A DNA stretch of 64,000 nt from Paenibacillus borealis (lineage in GTDB: Bacteria; Bacillota; Bacilli; Paenibacillales; Paenibacillaceae): the NCBI RefSeq assembly GCF_000758665.1, contig NZ_CP009285.1:7936001-8000000 (forward strand), in the 5' to 3' direction. The notes beneath the pieces were generated by a model, which was not told the origin of the DNA, ran no database searches, and saw only the letters and a program-made list of their open reading frames with translations. Position numbers and translations under genes: made by a program. Below are positions 32,345 through 38,472 of the stretch, one piece after another. Every line of letters starts with the position of its first letter. The first letter of the stretch is position 1.

Positions 32345-32360
32345 TCGCCCAGACACAAAA

Positions 32361-32392
32361 ACAGAGACTATCCGCTAATGGATAGTCTCTGT
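32361..32392. terminator. Bidirectional terminator
   Basis: ACAGAGACTATCC pairs perfectly with GGATAGTCTCTGT, flanked by AAAA and TTG. It lies between converging genes and serves the CdsA-like gene and the beta-helix lipoprotein gene. Confidence 0.85.
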
Positions 32393-32405
32393 TGTGCTGC
32401 CCGGC

Positions 32406-34745
32406 TTAATTCGTGCTTGTGCCCGCATCAGCAGGAGCTGTTGTACCCGCATCCGCCGGCTTCGTTGTACCTGCGTCAGCTGGCTTCGTCGTACCTGCAT
32501 CTGCCGGCTTCGTGGTTCCCGCATCGGCAGGTCTCGTGGTGCCCGCATCCGCAGGAGCTGTTGTGCCTGCATCCGCTGGCTTGGTAGTTCCTGCGTCTGC
32601 TGGCTTCGTGGTGCCCGCATCCGCAGGTCTCGTGGTGCCGGCGTCAGCTGGCGGTGTACCGCCTTGACCGTTGCCTCTGCCGCCTCCGCCGCCGAATCCG
32701 CCTCCACCGCCGCCAGGGCCACCCATGCTGCTTGGGGCGGTGGTTATACCGGATTCATTGACCCAGGTTACACTGCTGGTGATATCAAAGGTCACGAATT
32801 CGGTGCCTCCGCTGTATTCGCCATCCGTATATAATCCGTCTACGGCTGTTCCGGTAGCGCTGCCTCCGGTATAGACGGTGTACGAGCCCTCTTTCAGCTC
32901 AGGGGAGCTAACAACTACGGTCTGGAAGCTCTTCGATGGAGTGAAGGTCAGGATGGTATTGCCATCAGCGTCTTCCAGGTGAACCATGGTACCAGCCTGC
33001 TGAGTTTCTGTGAAGCTCATGCCTACCGAATACTGGCTGGATTCTTCACCAGGAGCCTGTGCCATACCGGAAGCGCCTGCTGCCACCAGATATCCGCCCG
33101 TCATGTTGAAGGTTCCGTCATAATCCAGTGCGCCGTTGCCCGAGTTCTCAGGTCCATTCACAATTGCGGTTCCGCCGGTCATGGTGATGGACCCGTTCGA
33201 ATCCAGACCGTCGCCTGCTGCATCCACGGTCAGGGTTCCGCCGCTGATGGTCAGCATATTGCTTCCGGTGCCGGCAGTGAATTGATCCTGTGCCTGCGTT
33301 CCCCCAGCAGCCGCATTGTCATCGTTGCCTCCGGCCACATTCACGCCGTCATCCGTCGCGACTACATGAATCTCACCGCCGGATACGGTAATGTTTCCTC
33401 CTTCAATCCCTTCATAGCTCTTGGTAATATTGATCGTTCCGCCGGACAGGGAGGTCAGGGAATCCGCATGGATCCCGTCATCGCCTGCGGCAATTTCGAA
33501 TTGTCCGTCTGTGATGGAGACATTGCTGTTGCTGTGCACCGCGTCATCTGCGGAATCAATCGTGAAGCTTCCGCCGTTCAAGGTGAGGTCTCCGCCTGCT
33601 TTCAGCCCCTTGGCGCTGGTCGATTCAGTCTCAGTGGTGGCAGTGGCATCTGTGCTGGCAGCTGCAGGCTGGTCAGTTGCTGCCGCTGCATCCATTGCCG
33701 GCGGGGTACCTCCTGCGGCTGCCTGATCCCCAGAAGTCTCTGTTCCCGGACGTTGGCCGCCGAAGCCACCGCCGCCCATATCCATGCCCATGCCGCCTTC
33801 GCCGGCCTTCACTTCAGCATTTACACTGCCGCCGCCGGTTACCAGCGTGTAGGTTCCGCCGTCGATTACAGCCGCCGTCTCGGCTTGAATGCCGTCATTG
33901 CCTGCGGTAATATCGAAGGTTCCCGCTGCTATAGCGATGAAGCCTTTGTCCGTATCCTCGTCGTTGGTCGATTTAATGCCATCGCCCTCTGCGTTGATCG
34001 TAATTGTGCCGTCCTGTACAGCGATCAGGTCTTTGCCGACGATACCATCATCCGCTGCCTTCACTTCAATCGTACCGGACATGATCTTCAGATCGTCTTT
34101 GCTTGAAATACCATCGTTGTAGTTGCCGGTTACCGTCAGCTTGCCGGTACCGTTAATGGTCAGATCGGCTTTACTGAAGATGGCCGCGCCTGGTTCATCG
34201 GTAGCCGCATCTGCGAACACATAAGCAGCTCCGTCAGTCACACTGTTCTCAGTGCCTTCCTGCAGGGTGATCACAACTTTGCCGGCTTCCTTGATGTAGA
34301 CCGGAGCACTGTCACTATCCGTCAGCTGAGCGCCGTTCAGCACCAGCCGTACGGTTCCTTTCGCCTGCTCGTCTACAATAATCTGGCCGTCACTGAGCGT
34401 GCCGCTGAGTACATAAGTCCCTGCTTCCGTAATCGTTACCGTTCCGTCCGCAGCTGTGGCACCGGCGCCATCCACAGTAGCGCTCGTTCCGGCTAGTGTA
34501 ACCGCAGTCGAATCCGCCTCCGTCCAGGCCGTCTCAGCATCATCTTCATCAAATGATACCAGATCCGCCAGCTTCACACTTGCCAGCTGTACTGCGGCAG
34601 ACGTACTGCTCTGCTCTGCTGTTACCGCTGTATCTGCGTTGTTACTTGCAGCGTTTTGCGTAGCGGCGTTTGTGCTGCAAGCCGACATGACTGCGGCGCA
34701 TAACAGTACCAGTCCTATTTTACTGCCTAAGATTAAGTTCTTCAT
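32406..34745 (-). CDS. Cthe_2159-family (DUF4353) beta-helix lipoprotein
   Basis: 779 residues. Signal peptide with lipobox MSAC (Cys23). The main body is a right-handed beta-helix with repeating DGISSKDDLKIMSGTIEVKA, ADDGIVGKDLI and GDGIKSTNDEDTDKGFIAI turns, the pattern of the Cthe_2159 carbohydrate-binding, calcium-rich fold. A Gly/Met insertion lies mid-way and a Gly-rich stretch near residue 690. The last 80 residues are ten 8-residue repeats (X-PADAGTT, X = R, K or A), a probable wall-spanning stalk. Third gene of an operon with VTC and DUF4956, a gene set seen repeatedly in Firmicutes. Probably binds acidic polysaccharide at the surface. Confidence 0.82.
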   Translation of the reverse strand: MKNLILGSKIGLVLLCAAVMSACSTNAATQNAASNNADTAVTAEQSSTSAAVQLASVKLADLVSFDEDDAETAWTEADSTAVTLAGTSATVDGAGATAADGTVTITEAGTYVLSGTLSDGQIIVDEQAKGTVRLVLNGAQLTDSDSAPVYIKEAGKVVITLQEGTENSVTDGAAYVFADAATDEPGAAIFSKADLTINGTGKLTVTGNYNDGISSKDDLKIMSGTIEVKAADDGIVGKDLIAVQDGTITINAEGDGIKSTNDEDTDKGFIAIAAGTFDITAGNDGIQAETAAVIDGGTYTLVTGGGSVNAEVKAGEGGMGMDMGGGGFGGQRPGTETSGDQAAAGGTPPAMDAAAATDQPAAASTDATATTETESTSAKGLKAGGDLTLNGGSFTIDSADDAVHSNSNVSITDGQFEIAAGDDGIHADSLTSLSGGTINITKSYEGIEGGNITVSGGEIHVVATDDGVNVAGGNDDNAAAGGTQAQDQFTAGTGSNMLTISGGTLTVDAAGDGLDSNGSITMTGGTAIVNGPENSGNGALDYDGTFNMTGGYLVAAGASGMAQAPGEESSQYSVGMSFTETQQAGTMVHLEDADGNTILTFTPSKSFQTVVVSSPELKEGSYTVYTGGSATGTAVDGLYTDGEYSGGTEFVTFDITSSVTWVNESGITTAPSSMGGPGGGGGGFGGGGGRGNGQGGTPPADAGTTRPADAGTTKPADAGTTKPADAGTTAPADAGTTRPADAGTTKPADAGTTKPADAGTTKPADAGTTAPADAGTSTN
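32415..32656 (-). repeat. Ten 24-bp tandem repeats inside the beta-helix lipoprotein gene
   Basis: Coding repeats for X-PADAGTT at the C-terminus. Codons vary between copies at third positions, so the array is not a recent expansion, although two blocks (R,K,K,A and R,K,K,K,A) look like a larger duplication. The copy number may vary among strains. Confidence 0.85.
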
Positions 34746-34772: not shown

Positions 34773-35456
34773 TTAATAGTCATTCATGACCGGAGCCATG
34801 GTCAGTGAGAGGTCAAGGTTACCGTTGCGTGTGCGGATCGCGTCAAGCAATTCCTTCTGGCTCGTGTGCTCATCAATCGTTACGGCATAGACCAGTTCAT
34901 ACAGGCTGCCAAGTTCAGTGGTTCTGATTTTCTTAAGCTCGTAAGCCACATTGAATTTATTGAAAACTTCCGCGAAAGCTTCCTCATAACCCAGATTCTC
35001 GGGAATGGTCACTTTCAGTGTCTTTTGCACCGACTTTCTGAGACCGAAGCCTGTACGGTTAAGCACGACCATCAGTACGCAGAGGATAATGGTGAAGAGC
35101 ACCGCATATCCGAATGATCCTACCCCGCAGGCCAGGCCGGAGGCCATGGTGAACAGGACGAAGGTGATATCCTTCGGATCGCCGGGTGCGCTTCTGAAGC
35201 GGATGATGGAGAAGGCGCCGGCAAGGCTGAAGGCCCGGGCCACGTTGCTGCCGATGAGCAGGATAATGATAGCCACAATGACTGGCAGCAGGACCATCGT
35301 GAGCGTGAAGCTCTGTGAATATCCGGCAGGGTTCGTCTTCATGTAGGTGTAGCTGATGAGCCCGCCAAGTACAATCGAGATCAATATGGTTAAAATAGCA
35401 TTAGTGAAGGTTAGCTCCGTTGTAGTCAGGGCTGCGGAGAAAATCGAATCAAGCAT
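34773..35456 (-). CDS. DUF4956 membrane protein
   Basis: 227 residues. Four hydrophobic segments in the first 130 residues with the conserved VARAFSLAGAFSIIRFRSAPGDPKDI loop, then a soluble C-terminal domain of about 95 residues (KTLKVTIPENLGYEEAF, ELGSLYELVYAVTI). This is DUF4956, nearly always encoded beside a VTC-domain polyphosphate polymerase. It starts within the 3' end of the VTC gene (8-bp overlap from ATG 35456; a GTG at 35465 is the alternative). Inferred: a membrane partner or channel for the VTC enzyme. Confidence 0.85.
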   Translation of the reverse strand: MLDSIFSAALTTTELTFTNAILTILISIVLGGLISYTYMKTNPAGYSQSFTLTMVLLPVIVAIIILLIGSNVARAFSLAGAFSIIRFRSAPGDPKDITFVLFTMASGLACGVGSFGYAVLFTIILCVLMVVLNRTGFGLRKSVQKTLKVTIPENLGYEEAFAEVFNKFNVAYELKKIRTTELGSLYELVYAVTIDEHTSQKELLDAIRTRNGNLDLSLTMAPVMNDY

Positions 35457-36192
35457 ATAGGACACTCTCTCTTTCTGCTTTGCTGTTCTTCAGCATTTTT
35501 TTATATTCATTGCCGTATTTGGAGAAGCTGGTGCGGTACATCTGGTGTTCGGAGAGCATTTTGGCCAGCCAGACCGGTATCGTCTTCTCCGCCTTCACTT
35601 CCATCAGCCATTGACCCGGCTCCAGCAGCTCCTCGCCGTATACGCCGTGCTCCATCTTCAGATCGTACCGCCGGCAGCGGATATTCGTATCGAAGGTGAT
35701 GCGCAGATCGCGGTTGTTTTTGCAGAACATCGCTTTGCGGTCATAGGACAGGTACAGCTTCGGCTGCAGATCATAGCGGGTCAGCATGTACTTGATTTCT
35801 TCAATCACCTGCTTGTTCATGTAGCTCTTGAATTCAGGCTCGATGCCGCTGGCGACGAAATCATAGGCTTCATTCAGCTTGAGCGAGGTTCTTCTCTTGT
35901 TCACCAGGCCGAACACCTTTTTCTTAATTTCCAGATAGACCTTGGTGTCGCCGGTAGGAATGCCATATGCTCTGATGCGAAGCTTCTCCTTGTATTTCGG
36001 CTTGGCCAGGCTGCTGCGGATCAGGGAATCATGTGGTGTGTCATAATACAGGTTGGTGATGGAATAGTACTCATGCTGTTTGTTGTACTCATCGGGTTCC
36101 ATGTATTCGAGCAGTTCGTTATAGAGCTTCAGGTAGGATTCAGTGTCGAACAGGTATTTGTTCTCGTAACGGTTGAATACTTCAATAGCCAT
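35449..36192 (-). CDS. VTC-domain polyphosphate polymerase
   Basis: 247 residues, a single VTC tunnel domain. N-terminal RYENKYLFDTESYLKLYNEL, then NLYYDTP, basic strands KYKEKLRIRAYG and VYLEIKKKVFGLVNKRRTSL (EIK, K/R-lined tunnel), YDRKAMF, LRITFDTNIRCRRYD and MEVKAEKTIPVWL. In yeast Vtc4 the same basic residues and metal-binding Glu polymerise polyphosphate from ATP. Bacterial homologues are mostly uncharacterised. First gene of the operon; GAAAGGATCTG precedes the ATG. The promoter at 36273-36304 carries the same element as the facing two-component system. Confidence 0.88.
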   Translation of the reverse strand: MAIEVFNRYENKYLFDTESYLKLYNELLEYMEPDEYNKQHEYYSITNLYYDTPHDSLIRSSLAKPKYKEKLRIRAYGIPTGDTKVYLEIKKKVFGLVNKRRTSLKLNEAYDFVASGIEPEFKSYMNKQVIEEIKYMLTRYDLQPKLYLSYDRKAMFCKNNRDLRITFDTNIRCRRYDLKMEHGVYGEELLEPGQWLMEVKAEKTIPVWLAKMLSEHQMYRTSFSKYGNEYKKMLKNSKAERESVLYA

Positions 36193-36272
36193 ATGGGTTC
36201 AGATCCTTTCGGGTGGTGTAATGGAGACTGCCTTTATCTGTTGTTTCGTGTGCCTCGCTTGCTTATGAATGT

Positions 36273-36304
36273 ATCTTAGCCCCCGAACCTTTAATGAATC
36301 TTAA
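36273..36304 (-). promoter_or_regulatory. Response-regulator box and -10 for the VTC operon
   Basis: Reverse strand TTAAGATTCATTAAAGGT (36287-36304), 8 bp, then TAAGAT (36273-36278). The box is a TTAA-N6-TTAAAGGT direct repeat typical of OmpR/PhoB-type regulators, placed where a -35 would be. It matches the box at 36449 at 16 of 18 positions with identical spacing to the -10. Confidence 0.75.
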
Positions 36305-36448
36305 ATGGCTTTACACTGCGCTGACTTTTTTACACAGGGATAACACTTCTGAATTTATCTTCTATATAAGTGCCCTGGAACGATTGGAATTTCATCCGAT
36401 GATTTCGCTCGTCTGAATACCTCCGGCAGCACCTGATCAGCAGTACAG

Positions 36449-36480
36449 TTAAGGTTGATTAAAGGTAATCTTGCTATAAT
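36449..36480 (+). promoter_or_regulatory. Response-regulator box and -10 for the two-component operon
   Basis: TTAAGGTTGATTAAAGGT (36449-36466), 8 bp, then TATAAT (36475-36480). No good -35 is present, fitting an activator-dependent promoter. It pairs with the box at 36287-36304 facing the other way. The remainder of 36193-36526 shows no gene. Confidence 0.75.
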
Positions 36481-36526
36481 GACTTAAGCAGCAAGTACAT
36501 TACTTATGAAGAGGATGAACCATCCC

Positions 36527-37204
36527 ATGAGAATATTAATCGTAGAAGACGAGATCCATCTGGCGGAAGCCTTGACCCAAATATTGAAGAAGCACAATTA
36601 CTCGGTGGACGCCGTCCATGACGGCAGATCAGGTCTCGATTATGCACAGAGCGGGATCTATGACCTGCTGCTGCTCGATATTATGATGCCGGAGATGGAT
36701 GGAATCAGCGTGCTGAAGGAGCTGCGGAAAGAAGGAATCTCCACGCCGGTGATCATGCTGACGGCCAAAGGCGAGATTACCGATATGGTGACGGGACTGG
36801 ACTACGGAGCGGATGATTATATTGCGAAGCCGTTCTCCTCGGAGGAGCTGCTGGCCAGAATACGGGCCGCCCTGCGGCGCAAAGGGGAAGTGATTCCTGA
36901 GGATGGCTTGAAGTTCGGAGATATTGAGCTGAATACGGCGAATCCGAAGCTGACGGTCAAGGGCAAGGAAATCAAGCTGAACCTTAAGGAAACCGAGCTG
37001 CTGGAGCTGCTGATCCTAAGGAAGCAGGCCGTAACCTCCAAGGAGCAGATTATTGAGAAGCTGTGGGGGTTCGATTCCGAAGCGGAGCATAATAACGTGG
37101 AGGTCTATATTTCTTTTTTGCGCAAAAAGCTTACCTTCCTGAATTCCGAGGTGCGCATCAGCACGATTAGAGGCGTGGGTTATGTATTAGAGGTGAATGC
37201 TTAA
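36527..37204 (+). CDS. OmpR-family response regulator
   Basis: 225 residues. Receiver domain with acidic pocket (VEDE), phospho-acceptor Asp51 (LLLLDIMMPEMDG), Thr in MLTAKGE and Lys in YIAKPFS. C-terminal winged helix (LNLKETELLELLILRKQAVT, HNNVEVYISFLRKKL, STIRGVGYVLE). ATG 36527 is chosen because the receiver begins MRILIVEDE; GAAGAGGATG precedes it, and an ATG seven codons upstream is possible. Its stop overlaps the kinase ATG by one base. Probably controls its own operon and the VTC operon opposite. Confidence 0.93.
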   Translation: MRILIVEDEIHLAEALTQILKKHNYSVDAVHDGRSGLDYAQSGIYDLLLLDIMMPEMDGISVLKELRKEGISTPVIMLTAKGEITDMVTGLDYGADDYIAKPFSSEELLARIRAALRRKGEVIPEDGLKFGDIELNTANPKLTVKGKEIKLNLKETELLELLILRKQAVTSKEQIIEKLWGFDSEAEHNNVEVYISFLRKKLTFLNSEVRISTIRGVGYVLEVNA

Positions 37205-38472
37205 TGTTCAATAAACTCAGAAACCGGTTCCTGATTGTTAATCTGGCTACCATCTCCATCATGATGCTGCTCGCCTTCGCCACGATCTATATCATCATGT
37301 ACGTCAATGTGCAGAATGATATTAATATGGCGCTGCACCGGATTGCGGACAATGAGCAGAAGGGACCCGGCGGCGCACAAGGAGGGCCCCGCGGTGCAGC
37401 AGACGGCGGCAGTATGCCCATGGATAAAGGGCCAATTGATGCTTACCAGCCTGACCGTTCCGTCTCGTTCACCATACAGACCGATGCAAACGGTACGCTG
37501 ATCAGCAAGGACTCCAAATTCACGATGGATGATGACTTCTATACTGCTGCGCTTAAGGAAGCCCTTAGCAACGGCAAGGACATTGGCAGGTTCACCCTTG
37601 ACGGCAGCCGCTGGATCTTCATGGTTAAGCATACGGGGGATAAGGAACAGGTCGTCTTCATGGACATCTCTTCCCAGCAGAAGATCCTGACCAACCTCAT
37701 CTACACCTTCACGGCCGTCGGCCTGCTGATGCTGATCATTCTCTACTTCACCAGCCGGTTTTTCGCCAACCGTTCGATTGCGCCAGTCCGGGAGGCCTTC
37801 GACAAGCAAAAGCAGTTCATCGCCGATGCCTCGCATGAGCTGAAGACGCCGCTGACGATCATCAACACCAACGCGGATGTACTCCTGTCCAACAGTGACG
37901 ATACGATCCGCAATCAGGCGAAGTGGCTGCAGTATATCAAGTCGGAGACCGAGCGCATGACCCGGCTGACCAACGACCTGCTGTACCTGACAGAGATGGA
38001 CGATTCCCGGACTGGAATGATCCACAGCAAGTTCAATATGAGCGATGCGGTAGAGAATATTATTCTGACCATGGAGGCTGTTATCTTCGAGAAGAATATC
38101 TCCTTCGACTACAACATCGAACCGGAGCTTACCGTGCTGGGGAACAGCGAACAGATTAAGCAAGTGGTGATGATTCTGCTGGACAACGCAGTGAAATATA
38201 CGAATCCTAAGGGCGCTGTAACCATCTCACTCAAAAAGCAAAATAACGATGTCCTCCTCTCCGTCTCGAATACCGGGGAAGGCATCGCTGCCGAGCATCT
38301 GACGCGGATCTTTGACCGCTTTTACCGTACGGACACTTCCAGAGCGCGCAAGCAGGGCGGCTACGGCCTGGGTCTGGCTATCGCCAAGTCGATTGTGGAT
38401 CAGCATAAAGGGAAGATTTACGCGAAGAGTGTGGCCGGAGAGTCAACGACGTTCTATGTGCAGCTGCCTTGA
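37204..38472 (+). CDS. Sensor histidine kinase (VTC-linked)
   Basis: 422 residues. Helix 1 at about 9-32, an extracellular domain of about 130 residues with a Gly/Pro-rich patch (GPGGAQGGPRGAADGG), helix 2 at about 163-184. There is no clear HAMP domain. DHp box with His211 (FIADASHELKTPLTII), then N (LDNAVKYT), G1 (VSNTGEGI), F (IFDRFYR) and G2 (GYGLGLAIAKS) boxes are all intact. It should autophosphorylate and activate the 36527 regulator. The signal is unknown; the adjacent targets suggest envelope, phosphate or cation stress. Confidence 0.93.
   Translation: MFNKLRNRFLIVNLATISIMMLLAFATIYIIMYVNVQNDINMALHRIADNEQKGPGGAQGGPRGAADGGSMPMDKGPIDAYQPDRSVSFTIQTDANGTLISKDSKFTMDDDFYTAALKEALSNGKDIGRFTLDGSRWIFMVKHTGDKEQVVFMDISSQQKILTNLIYTFTAVGLLMLIILYFTSRFFANRSIAPVREAFDKQKQFIADASHELKTPLTIINTNADVLLSNSDDTIRNQAKWLQYIKSETERMTRLTNDLLYLTEMDDSRTGMIHSKFNMSDAVENIILTMEAVIFEKNISFDYNIEPELTVLGNSEQIKQVVMILLDNAVKYTNPKGAVTISLKKQNNDVLLSVSNTGEGIAAEHLTRIFDRFYRTDTSRARKQGGYGLGLAIAKSIVDQHKGKIYAKSVAGESTTFYVQLP

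Follow-up and report, generated by a model that had tools for sequence, protein, structure and literature searches.

A CiaR-like direct repeat in two divergent promoters probably links a two-component system to a VTC/DUF4956 operon in Paenibacillus borealis and relatives

Here, we describe a locus within a 64-kb stretch of DNA, referred to as the window, taken from the 8.16-Mb genome of a soil bacterium. Two divergent operons, one encoding a two-component system and the other a VTC-domain protein and its neighbors, flank a gap that holds several short elements. The features, in window coordinates, are the following:

36506..37204, plus strand: OmpR/PhoB-type response regulator with recognition helix NNVEVYISFLRKKL (ORF list, Pfam)
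37204..38472, plus strand: sensor histidine kinase (ORF list, Pfam)
36449..36466, plus strand: regulator-promoter box TTAAGGTTGATTAAAGGT, a TTAAG-N5-TTAAAG(GT) direct repeat
36475..36480, plus strand: regulator-promoter -10 TATAAT, 8 bp past the 18-mer and 10 bp past the second half-site
36329..36345, plus strand: Pho-box-like element TTTACA-N5-ATAACA (TGTTAT-N5-TGTAAA on the other strand)
36287..36304, minus strand: VTC-operon box TTAAGATTCATTAAAGGT, TTTAAG-N5-TTAAAG(GT), of which the first T is base 36305
36273..36278, minus strand: VTC-operon -10 TAAGAT, 8 bp past the 18-mer
35449..36192, minus strand: VTC-domain protein (PF09359; Pfam)
34773..35465, minus strand: DUF4956 protein (PF16316; Pfam), overlapping the VTC gene by 17 bp
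32406..34745, minus strand: Cthe_2159 protein (PF14262; Pfam)
32360..32393, minus strand: intrinsic-terminator-like hairpin 3' of the VTC operon (consensus match alone)

The response regulator combines a receiver domain (PF00072, E 1.4e-33) with a Trans_reg_C winged-helix domain (PF00486, E 6.9e-21), the architecture of the OmpR/PhoB family, and its closest named relatives belong to Paenibacillus and Saccharibacillus. The longest open reading frame begins at 36506, and 36527 (ATGAGAATATTA) is probably the true start, as it is favored by the aligned starts of the orthologs. With this start the divergent gap measures 334 bp, the length given by the initial annotation, which does not hold for the longest-ORF start. 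The kinase contains, by inspection of its sequence, an extracellular-looking domain between two hydrophobic helices (residues about 84-160), comprising ~77 residues with a mean column identity of 55% and predicted to adopt a PAS-like fold.

On the VTC side, the VTC domain is recognized at E 5.2e-54 (183.7 bits against a cut-off of 23), and the family profile aligns with the catalytic domain of Vtc4 (3g3q, E 4.6e-12, profile positions 5-177). Across 20 homologs, residues R72, R74, E88, K90, K99, R152, and R164 show no variation, and we take them to line the Vtc4 tunnel; the C-terminal part, with E198 and K225, aligned to Vtc4 below significance only. By homology, the protein may be a polyphosphate polymerase. 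The likeness to the yeast VTC4 polyphosphate polymerase lies in this catalytic alignment, whereas a Pfam scan finds no SPX domain in the window's VTC protein. Its partner is likely the DUF4956 protein. The Cthe_2159 protein (PF14262, E 4.6e-102) starts, in our reading, with a lipobox-like VMSAC, and its C-terminus is made up of PADAGTT-type repeat units (window 32406-32670).

The initial annotation had reported the two boxes, with 16 of 18 bases in common and each 8 bp before a -10 hexamer, and these positions and distances are correct to the base. Its remark that neither promoter has a good -35 agrees with a consensus scan, which gives no sigma-70 promoter at either place. When the frame is shifted one base earlier, the VTC box reads TTTAAG-N5-TTAAAG and the regulator box GTTAAG-N5-TTAAAG, with 10 bp from the second half-site to the -10. 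This is the layout of promoters controlled by CiaR/CiaH of streptococci, for which the available text describes NTTAAG-N5-TTTAAG placed ten bp from the -10, together with the CiaR recognition helix VVEVYVSKVRKKL (PMC3091779). We compared that helix by eye with NVEVYISFLRKKL of the window's regulator. The second half-site differs by one base (TTAAAG in the window, TTTAAG for CiaR), and the setting differs as well, as the present system occurs in other bacteria and its putative regulon comprises VTC, DUF4956, CotH or Cthe_2159, NAGPA, and a chemotaxis receptor. The earlier proposal of an OmpR-type activator site appears right, and can be narrowed to a CiaR-like geometry: NTTAAG-N5-TTWAAG, 10 bp, a -10, and no -35.

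Would a regulator bound at this position activate or repress? The box extends over the -35 position, at which repressors bind too, and the regulator could occupy both sites yet repress, or repress one promoter and activate the other. We consider this unlikely, as neither promoter has a recognized -35 and, in the CiaR system, equally placed sites mostly activate, with 21 genes reported as positively and manLMN as negatively regulated (PMC8317062). Expression of ciaRH itself is also described as affected by CiaRH (PMC3091779, PMC8317062). Activation of both promoters is the reading that we keep.

With up to three mismatches, the box pattern occurs in the window at just these two places (0.15 expected), and two such places were reached in 1 of 100 shuffles of the 64 kb. 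In the whole genome, these two are the only exact sites, and the nine sites with two mismatches lie at background, with 11 sites in total against 17 for the reversed pattern. A chance origin of the boxes was rejected, because their conservation in relatives makes chance an unlikely source. A regulon of two sites, as the genome count would have it, was also considered and rejected: one two-mismatch site (L061), though part of a background count, proved to be conserved before NAGPA elsewhere.

To follow the boxes through the family, we searched 60 genomes, including the window's own, for VTC; 38 matched and 30 loci were fetched. The regulator adjoins VTC in 25 of these, and the five in which it does not (L024, L027, L028, L029, L030) were left out of the conservation count. 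Both boxes, each with a TANNNT -10, are present in all 25 regulator-VTC loci, the regulator-side spacer being 9 bp instead of 8 bp in L025 and L026. When the gaps are aligned, most box columns are 90-100% identical, against 30-70% in much of the remainder. All seven named relatives with a regulator identity of at least 80% keep both boxes with at most two mismatches, although some of them may be the same species as other genomes counted; in the remaining 73 of the 80 loci from that regulator search (identity of at most 47%), tblastn found no VTC, DUF4956, or Cthe_2159. Further genomes from other genera of the family (L278-L281) have both sites in 4/4 cases. The two operons lie apart in Saccharibacillus sacchari (L111, ~2.3 kb) and in L279 (~1.9 kb), and each promoter retains its own box. 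Both boxes have the form TTCAAGG in L103-L105, L278, L280, and L281. Among six VTC genes without an adjoining regulator, three have no site, as expected (L027, L028, L029), two have weak sites (L024 and L030, p 0.002), and one is borderline (L248, p 0.025). As a separate observation, the regulator gene in L013 (genome G028) looks interrupted, being split over two frames, and the matches in G003 and G433 have a stop inside; the boxes persist in L013 and L018.

Outside the family, a regulator search of 398 genomes of the phylum, in which the seven best candidates per genome were scored, matched at least 19, and all 13 outside-family matches (12 genomes) were read. VTC and DUF4956 lie near the regulator in eight of the 13 loci, accompanied by CotH, Cthe_2159, or both, and all eight have the site in both promoters with at most two mismatches; letter shuffles of seven of these gaps yielded 0-0.03 matching strands per shuffle. 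The initial annotation had staked its proposal on the boxes being conserved in relatives that share this gene order, and they are conserved throughout (25/25, 7/7, and 4/4 in the family, 8/8 beyond it). In the other five loci, no VTC was seen on the DNA read, three of them sitting on contigs of 3-12 kb; the site stands before the regulator in three of the five (L266, L270, L272), and no site was found there in L269 and L275. CotH, polyphosphate polymerase, and DUF4956 genes have been described as accessory genes of Gram-positive pel clusters (PMC7112168), which the CotH-like matches after DUF4956 in L265, L267, L268, L271, and L274 resemble. In contrast to our loci, the accessory-gene account, in its available portion, mentions no two-component system (PMC7112168).

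In four of the outside loci (L273, L274, L276, L277), both promoters carry TTCAG-N5-TTTCAG and the recognition helix reads NNVEAYISF. In four others (L265, L267, L268, L271), a helix of the form NN[VIL]EVYISF goes with TTAAG-type sites, in which some half-sites read TTAAA or TAAAG. The residue concerned (VEVYISF to VEAYISF) is V in the window and in all 27 close orthologs read. That helix and box changed jointly in these four loci suggests, but does not prove, that the regulator reads these boxes; the four VEA loci possibly reflect one event, and L267 and L268 belong to the same genus. The link is weakened by L272 (G099:C9), in which TTCAG-N5-TTTCAG precedes a regulator with the unchanged helix VEVYISF, and by genome G057, in which we found no ortholog of the regulator despite a TTCAG-type site in the VTC promoter. 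TTCAG is also tolerated as the first half-site before NAGPA and MCP. The site in G057 (L282, G057:C24, 8946-8977) is followed by a -10 and precedes VTC.

The composite of box and -10, with at most one mismatch, extends the search beyond the gap. In the 26 genomes with the regulator (the 25 plus G046), it occurs 102 times against 8 for the reversed pattern, whereas 34 genomes without the regulator give 27 against 18. VTC and regulator promoters account for 48 of the 102. Sixty stretches around chosen sites were fetched and 55 were sorted by the next gene, after dropping L054, L055, L056, and L060, in which the site falls within an ORF or lacks a nearby same-strand gene, and L100, which holds a second regulator and no site. 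Four repeated gene families account for 31 of the 55 sorted sites: the phosphodiester glycosidase NAGPA (PF09992; 11 loci), a methyl-accepting chemotaxis protein (MCP; 8 loci, with a different MCP in L077), a second Cthe_2159 lipoprotein (6 loci), and DUF4405 (5 loci). Another 15 precede single genes, including one CotH (L053) and one HtrA-like gene, and most of these are taken as chance. Two sites (L087, L096), one of them in a genome without the regulator, lie before an LTA-synthase-like gene, two have no ORF downstream, and two depart from the form sought by the script (L058, and L052, in which the spacer is 9 bp and a regulator gene follows). The three sites in L071, L072, and L091, from genomes without the regulator, combine TTAAGGTTATTTTAAGATTGGC with TATAAT before an ORF of ~82 amino acids and probably serve another regulator. 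The HtrA-like case is a CiaR-like site before a trypsin/PDZ protein in L085 (G048), with an identical site string at G056:C1:36018; pneumococcal HtrA is reported to be CiaR-regulated (PMC10197876).

The sites before three of these families in the window's own genome, in genome coordinates, are:

2509025-2509056: NAGPA site, from the composite-site scan
3435750-3435781: MCP site, with one mismatch
909849-909880: second Cthe_2159 site, with one mismatch

Orthologs of these genes were found in 19 (NAGPA), 12 (MCP), and 8 (second Cthe_2159) of the 60 genomes, all of which have the regulator, at limits that we set ourselves (1e-40, 1e-110, and 1e-70, respectively); where candidates were many, the best 23-48 per genome were scored, and the co-occurrence is confounded by relatedness. 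Their promoters were scored with a matrix built from 48 of 50 anchor sites, the two with a longer spacer being dropped, against a background of 20000 stretches. The 99th percentile of the background was exceeded by 17/19, 11/12, and 8/8 promoters, and the 99.9th by 15, 10, and 8, compared to 3/19, 0, and 0 above the 99th for the antisense control. Below the 99th percentile lie 3/39, and several of those that pass are weak. Among promoters not first found by motif scans, 8/11 pass (5/7, 1/2, and 2/2), some weakly. An independent sign that NAGPA belongs to the regulon comes from L277, in which a NAGPA match (42% identity) sits between the regulator and VTC. The scope foreseen by the initial annotation, the regulator itself and the VTC operon, is borne out by conserved sites at both, but the regulon does not end at the gap, as it also takes in NAGPA, MCP, and the second Cthe_2159 gene. 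Judged from these patterns in the sequences, the regulator very probably controls the VTC-side genes and several scattered others.

These numbers also bear on who reads the boxes. Their fixed distance to the -10 might suggest core promoter elements recognized by a sigma factor; however, a direct repeat spaced at 11 bp, which each genome carries at few promoters and which is enriched where the regulator is present, makes this hardly credible. Another OmpR-type regulator, for example PhoP or WalR, might bind them in place of the adjacent one, as OmpR-type paralogs number in the dozens in this genome, half-sites in the family are alike, and a Pho-box-like element adjoins the VTC box; the TTCAG sites of G057 and L272 point the same way. 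We nonetheless regard this as improbable, as the enrichment follows the presence of the regulator, the box stands at the regulator's own promoter also in G046 (L052), for which the search gave no VTC, and a changed box occupies both promoters in each of the four loci whose helix has changed. The adjacent regulator is the reader that we favor.

The remaining element of the gap starts 40 bp upstream of the VTC-box start, read toward VTC. In this direction, the pattern TGTWAH-N5-TGTWAH, which we take to be the WalR consensus, is exact in 16 of the 25 gaps (0.05 expected from shuffles), 40-42 bp start to start from the VTC box in 15 of the 16, and at 24 and 35 bp in L023. Six more gaps have it with one or two mismatches (in L021 and L022 at 21 bp), and it was not found in L017, L025, and L026. 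Read from the opposite strand, the pattern takes the Pho-box form TTWACA-N5-TTWACA, which on our reading is exact in 13/25 gaps. A further TTTACA at window 36310-36315, between this element and the VTC box, is kept in most loci of the genus and is possibly a third half-site. The second gap site resembles the Pho-box form of Bacillus PhoP, whereas the main TTAAG-type boxes are not Pho boxes; the window's copy is one base off that form and is oriented away from VTC.

A scan of the window's genome with TGTWAA-N5-TGTWAA gives 12 sites, compared to 8 when the pattern is reversed, a number that by itself says little, but five of the places are informative. Sites of this form precede pstB (TIGR00972), the regulator gene preceding it, ppk (TIGR03705), and an Atg22-like transporter, and one lies in the gap that divides a second VTC-DUF4956 operon from a divergent purple-acid-phosphatase-like gene (G000:C1:3460014-3463030, L248); for the remaining seven of the 12, reading the neighboring ORFs showed no phosphate gene. 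The site of the polyphosphate kinase 1 gene (G000:C1:4613207-4616223, L250) lies 75 bp upstream of its start.

The element at 36329-36345 might instead be used by WalR, or be a low-affinity site of the same regulator, as it fits TGTWAH-N5-TGTWAH toward VTC and keeps a constant spacing to the VTC box. We treat this as a serious possibility, to which we give somewhat less than even weight. TTWACA-N5-TTWACA, however, stands in the sense direction before pstB, its preceding regulator gene, ppk, and the phosphatase gene, and the Pho-box form corresponds to the consensus given for Bacillus subtilis PhoP, TT(A/T/C)ACA-N4-6-TT(A/T/C)ACA (PMC12404567, available text), the window copy being off by one base. 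The second site, as far as its sequence context tells, probably adds a phosphate-starvation input via PhoP over the local regulator.

Taken together, we propose the following mechanism, in which we have good confidence as a whole. The adjacent kinase would phosphorylate the response regulator (36506-37204), and a dimer of the phosphorylated regulator would bind the NTTAAG-N5-TTWAAG repeat, which would stand in for the -35 in the two divergent promoters. The regulator would thereby switch on its own operon, a positive feedback, as well as the VTC-DUF4956-Cthe_2159 operon, and would also control scattered envelope genes, namely the phosphodiester glycosidase, the chemotaxis receptor, and the second Cthe_2159 lipoprotein. 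The Pho-box-type second site, at a fixed place relative to the VTC promoter, would probably add phosphate-starvation input via PhoP. The initial annotation had predicted that the regulator activates itself and the VTC operon; as far as sequence comparison reaches, this prediction holds, and the activation, like binding, partnership with the kinase, and use of the second site by PhoP, is what we infer from them.

Mechanistically, the system belongs to a known kind, its novelty lying in the wide tie to the VTC/DUF4956 module, the larger regulon, and the Pho-type site. Among the literature matches listed, nothing combines Paenibacillus, polyphosphate polymerase, and response regulator, and none reports this regulator.

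What might such a system serve? Tentatively, and with considerable doubt, VTC-DUF4956 may be accompanied across much of Bacillota by a dedicated two-component system whose operators in both promoters and, in one branch, recognition helix would have changed together. Its putative regulon, joining VTC, DUF4956, CotH or Cthe_2159, a phosphodiester glycosidase, and a chemotaxis receptor with a Pho input, would then mark out a regulated, kinase-monitored pathway for making and handling a surface polymer that contains phosphate. In one branch all four half-sites changed in parallel, which offers a natural and testable example of how a regulator and its operators evolve. A readable site makes the conserved regulator a handle on the poorly understood bacterial VTC/DUF4956 clusters and points to a strain for switching the whole gene set on or off, its regulon names further genes that may share the process, in particular the phosphodiester glycosidase and CotH, and the Pho-type site suggests that the cluster is linked to phosphate control.
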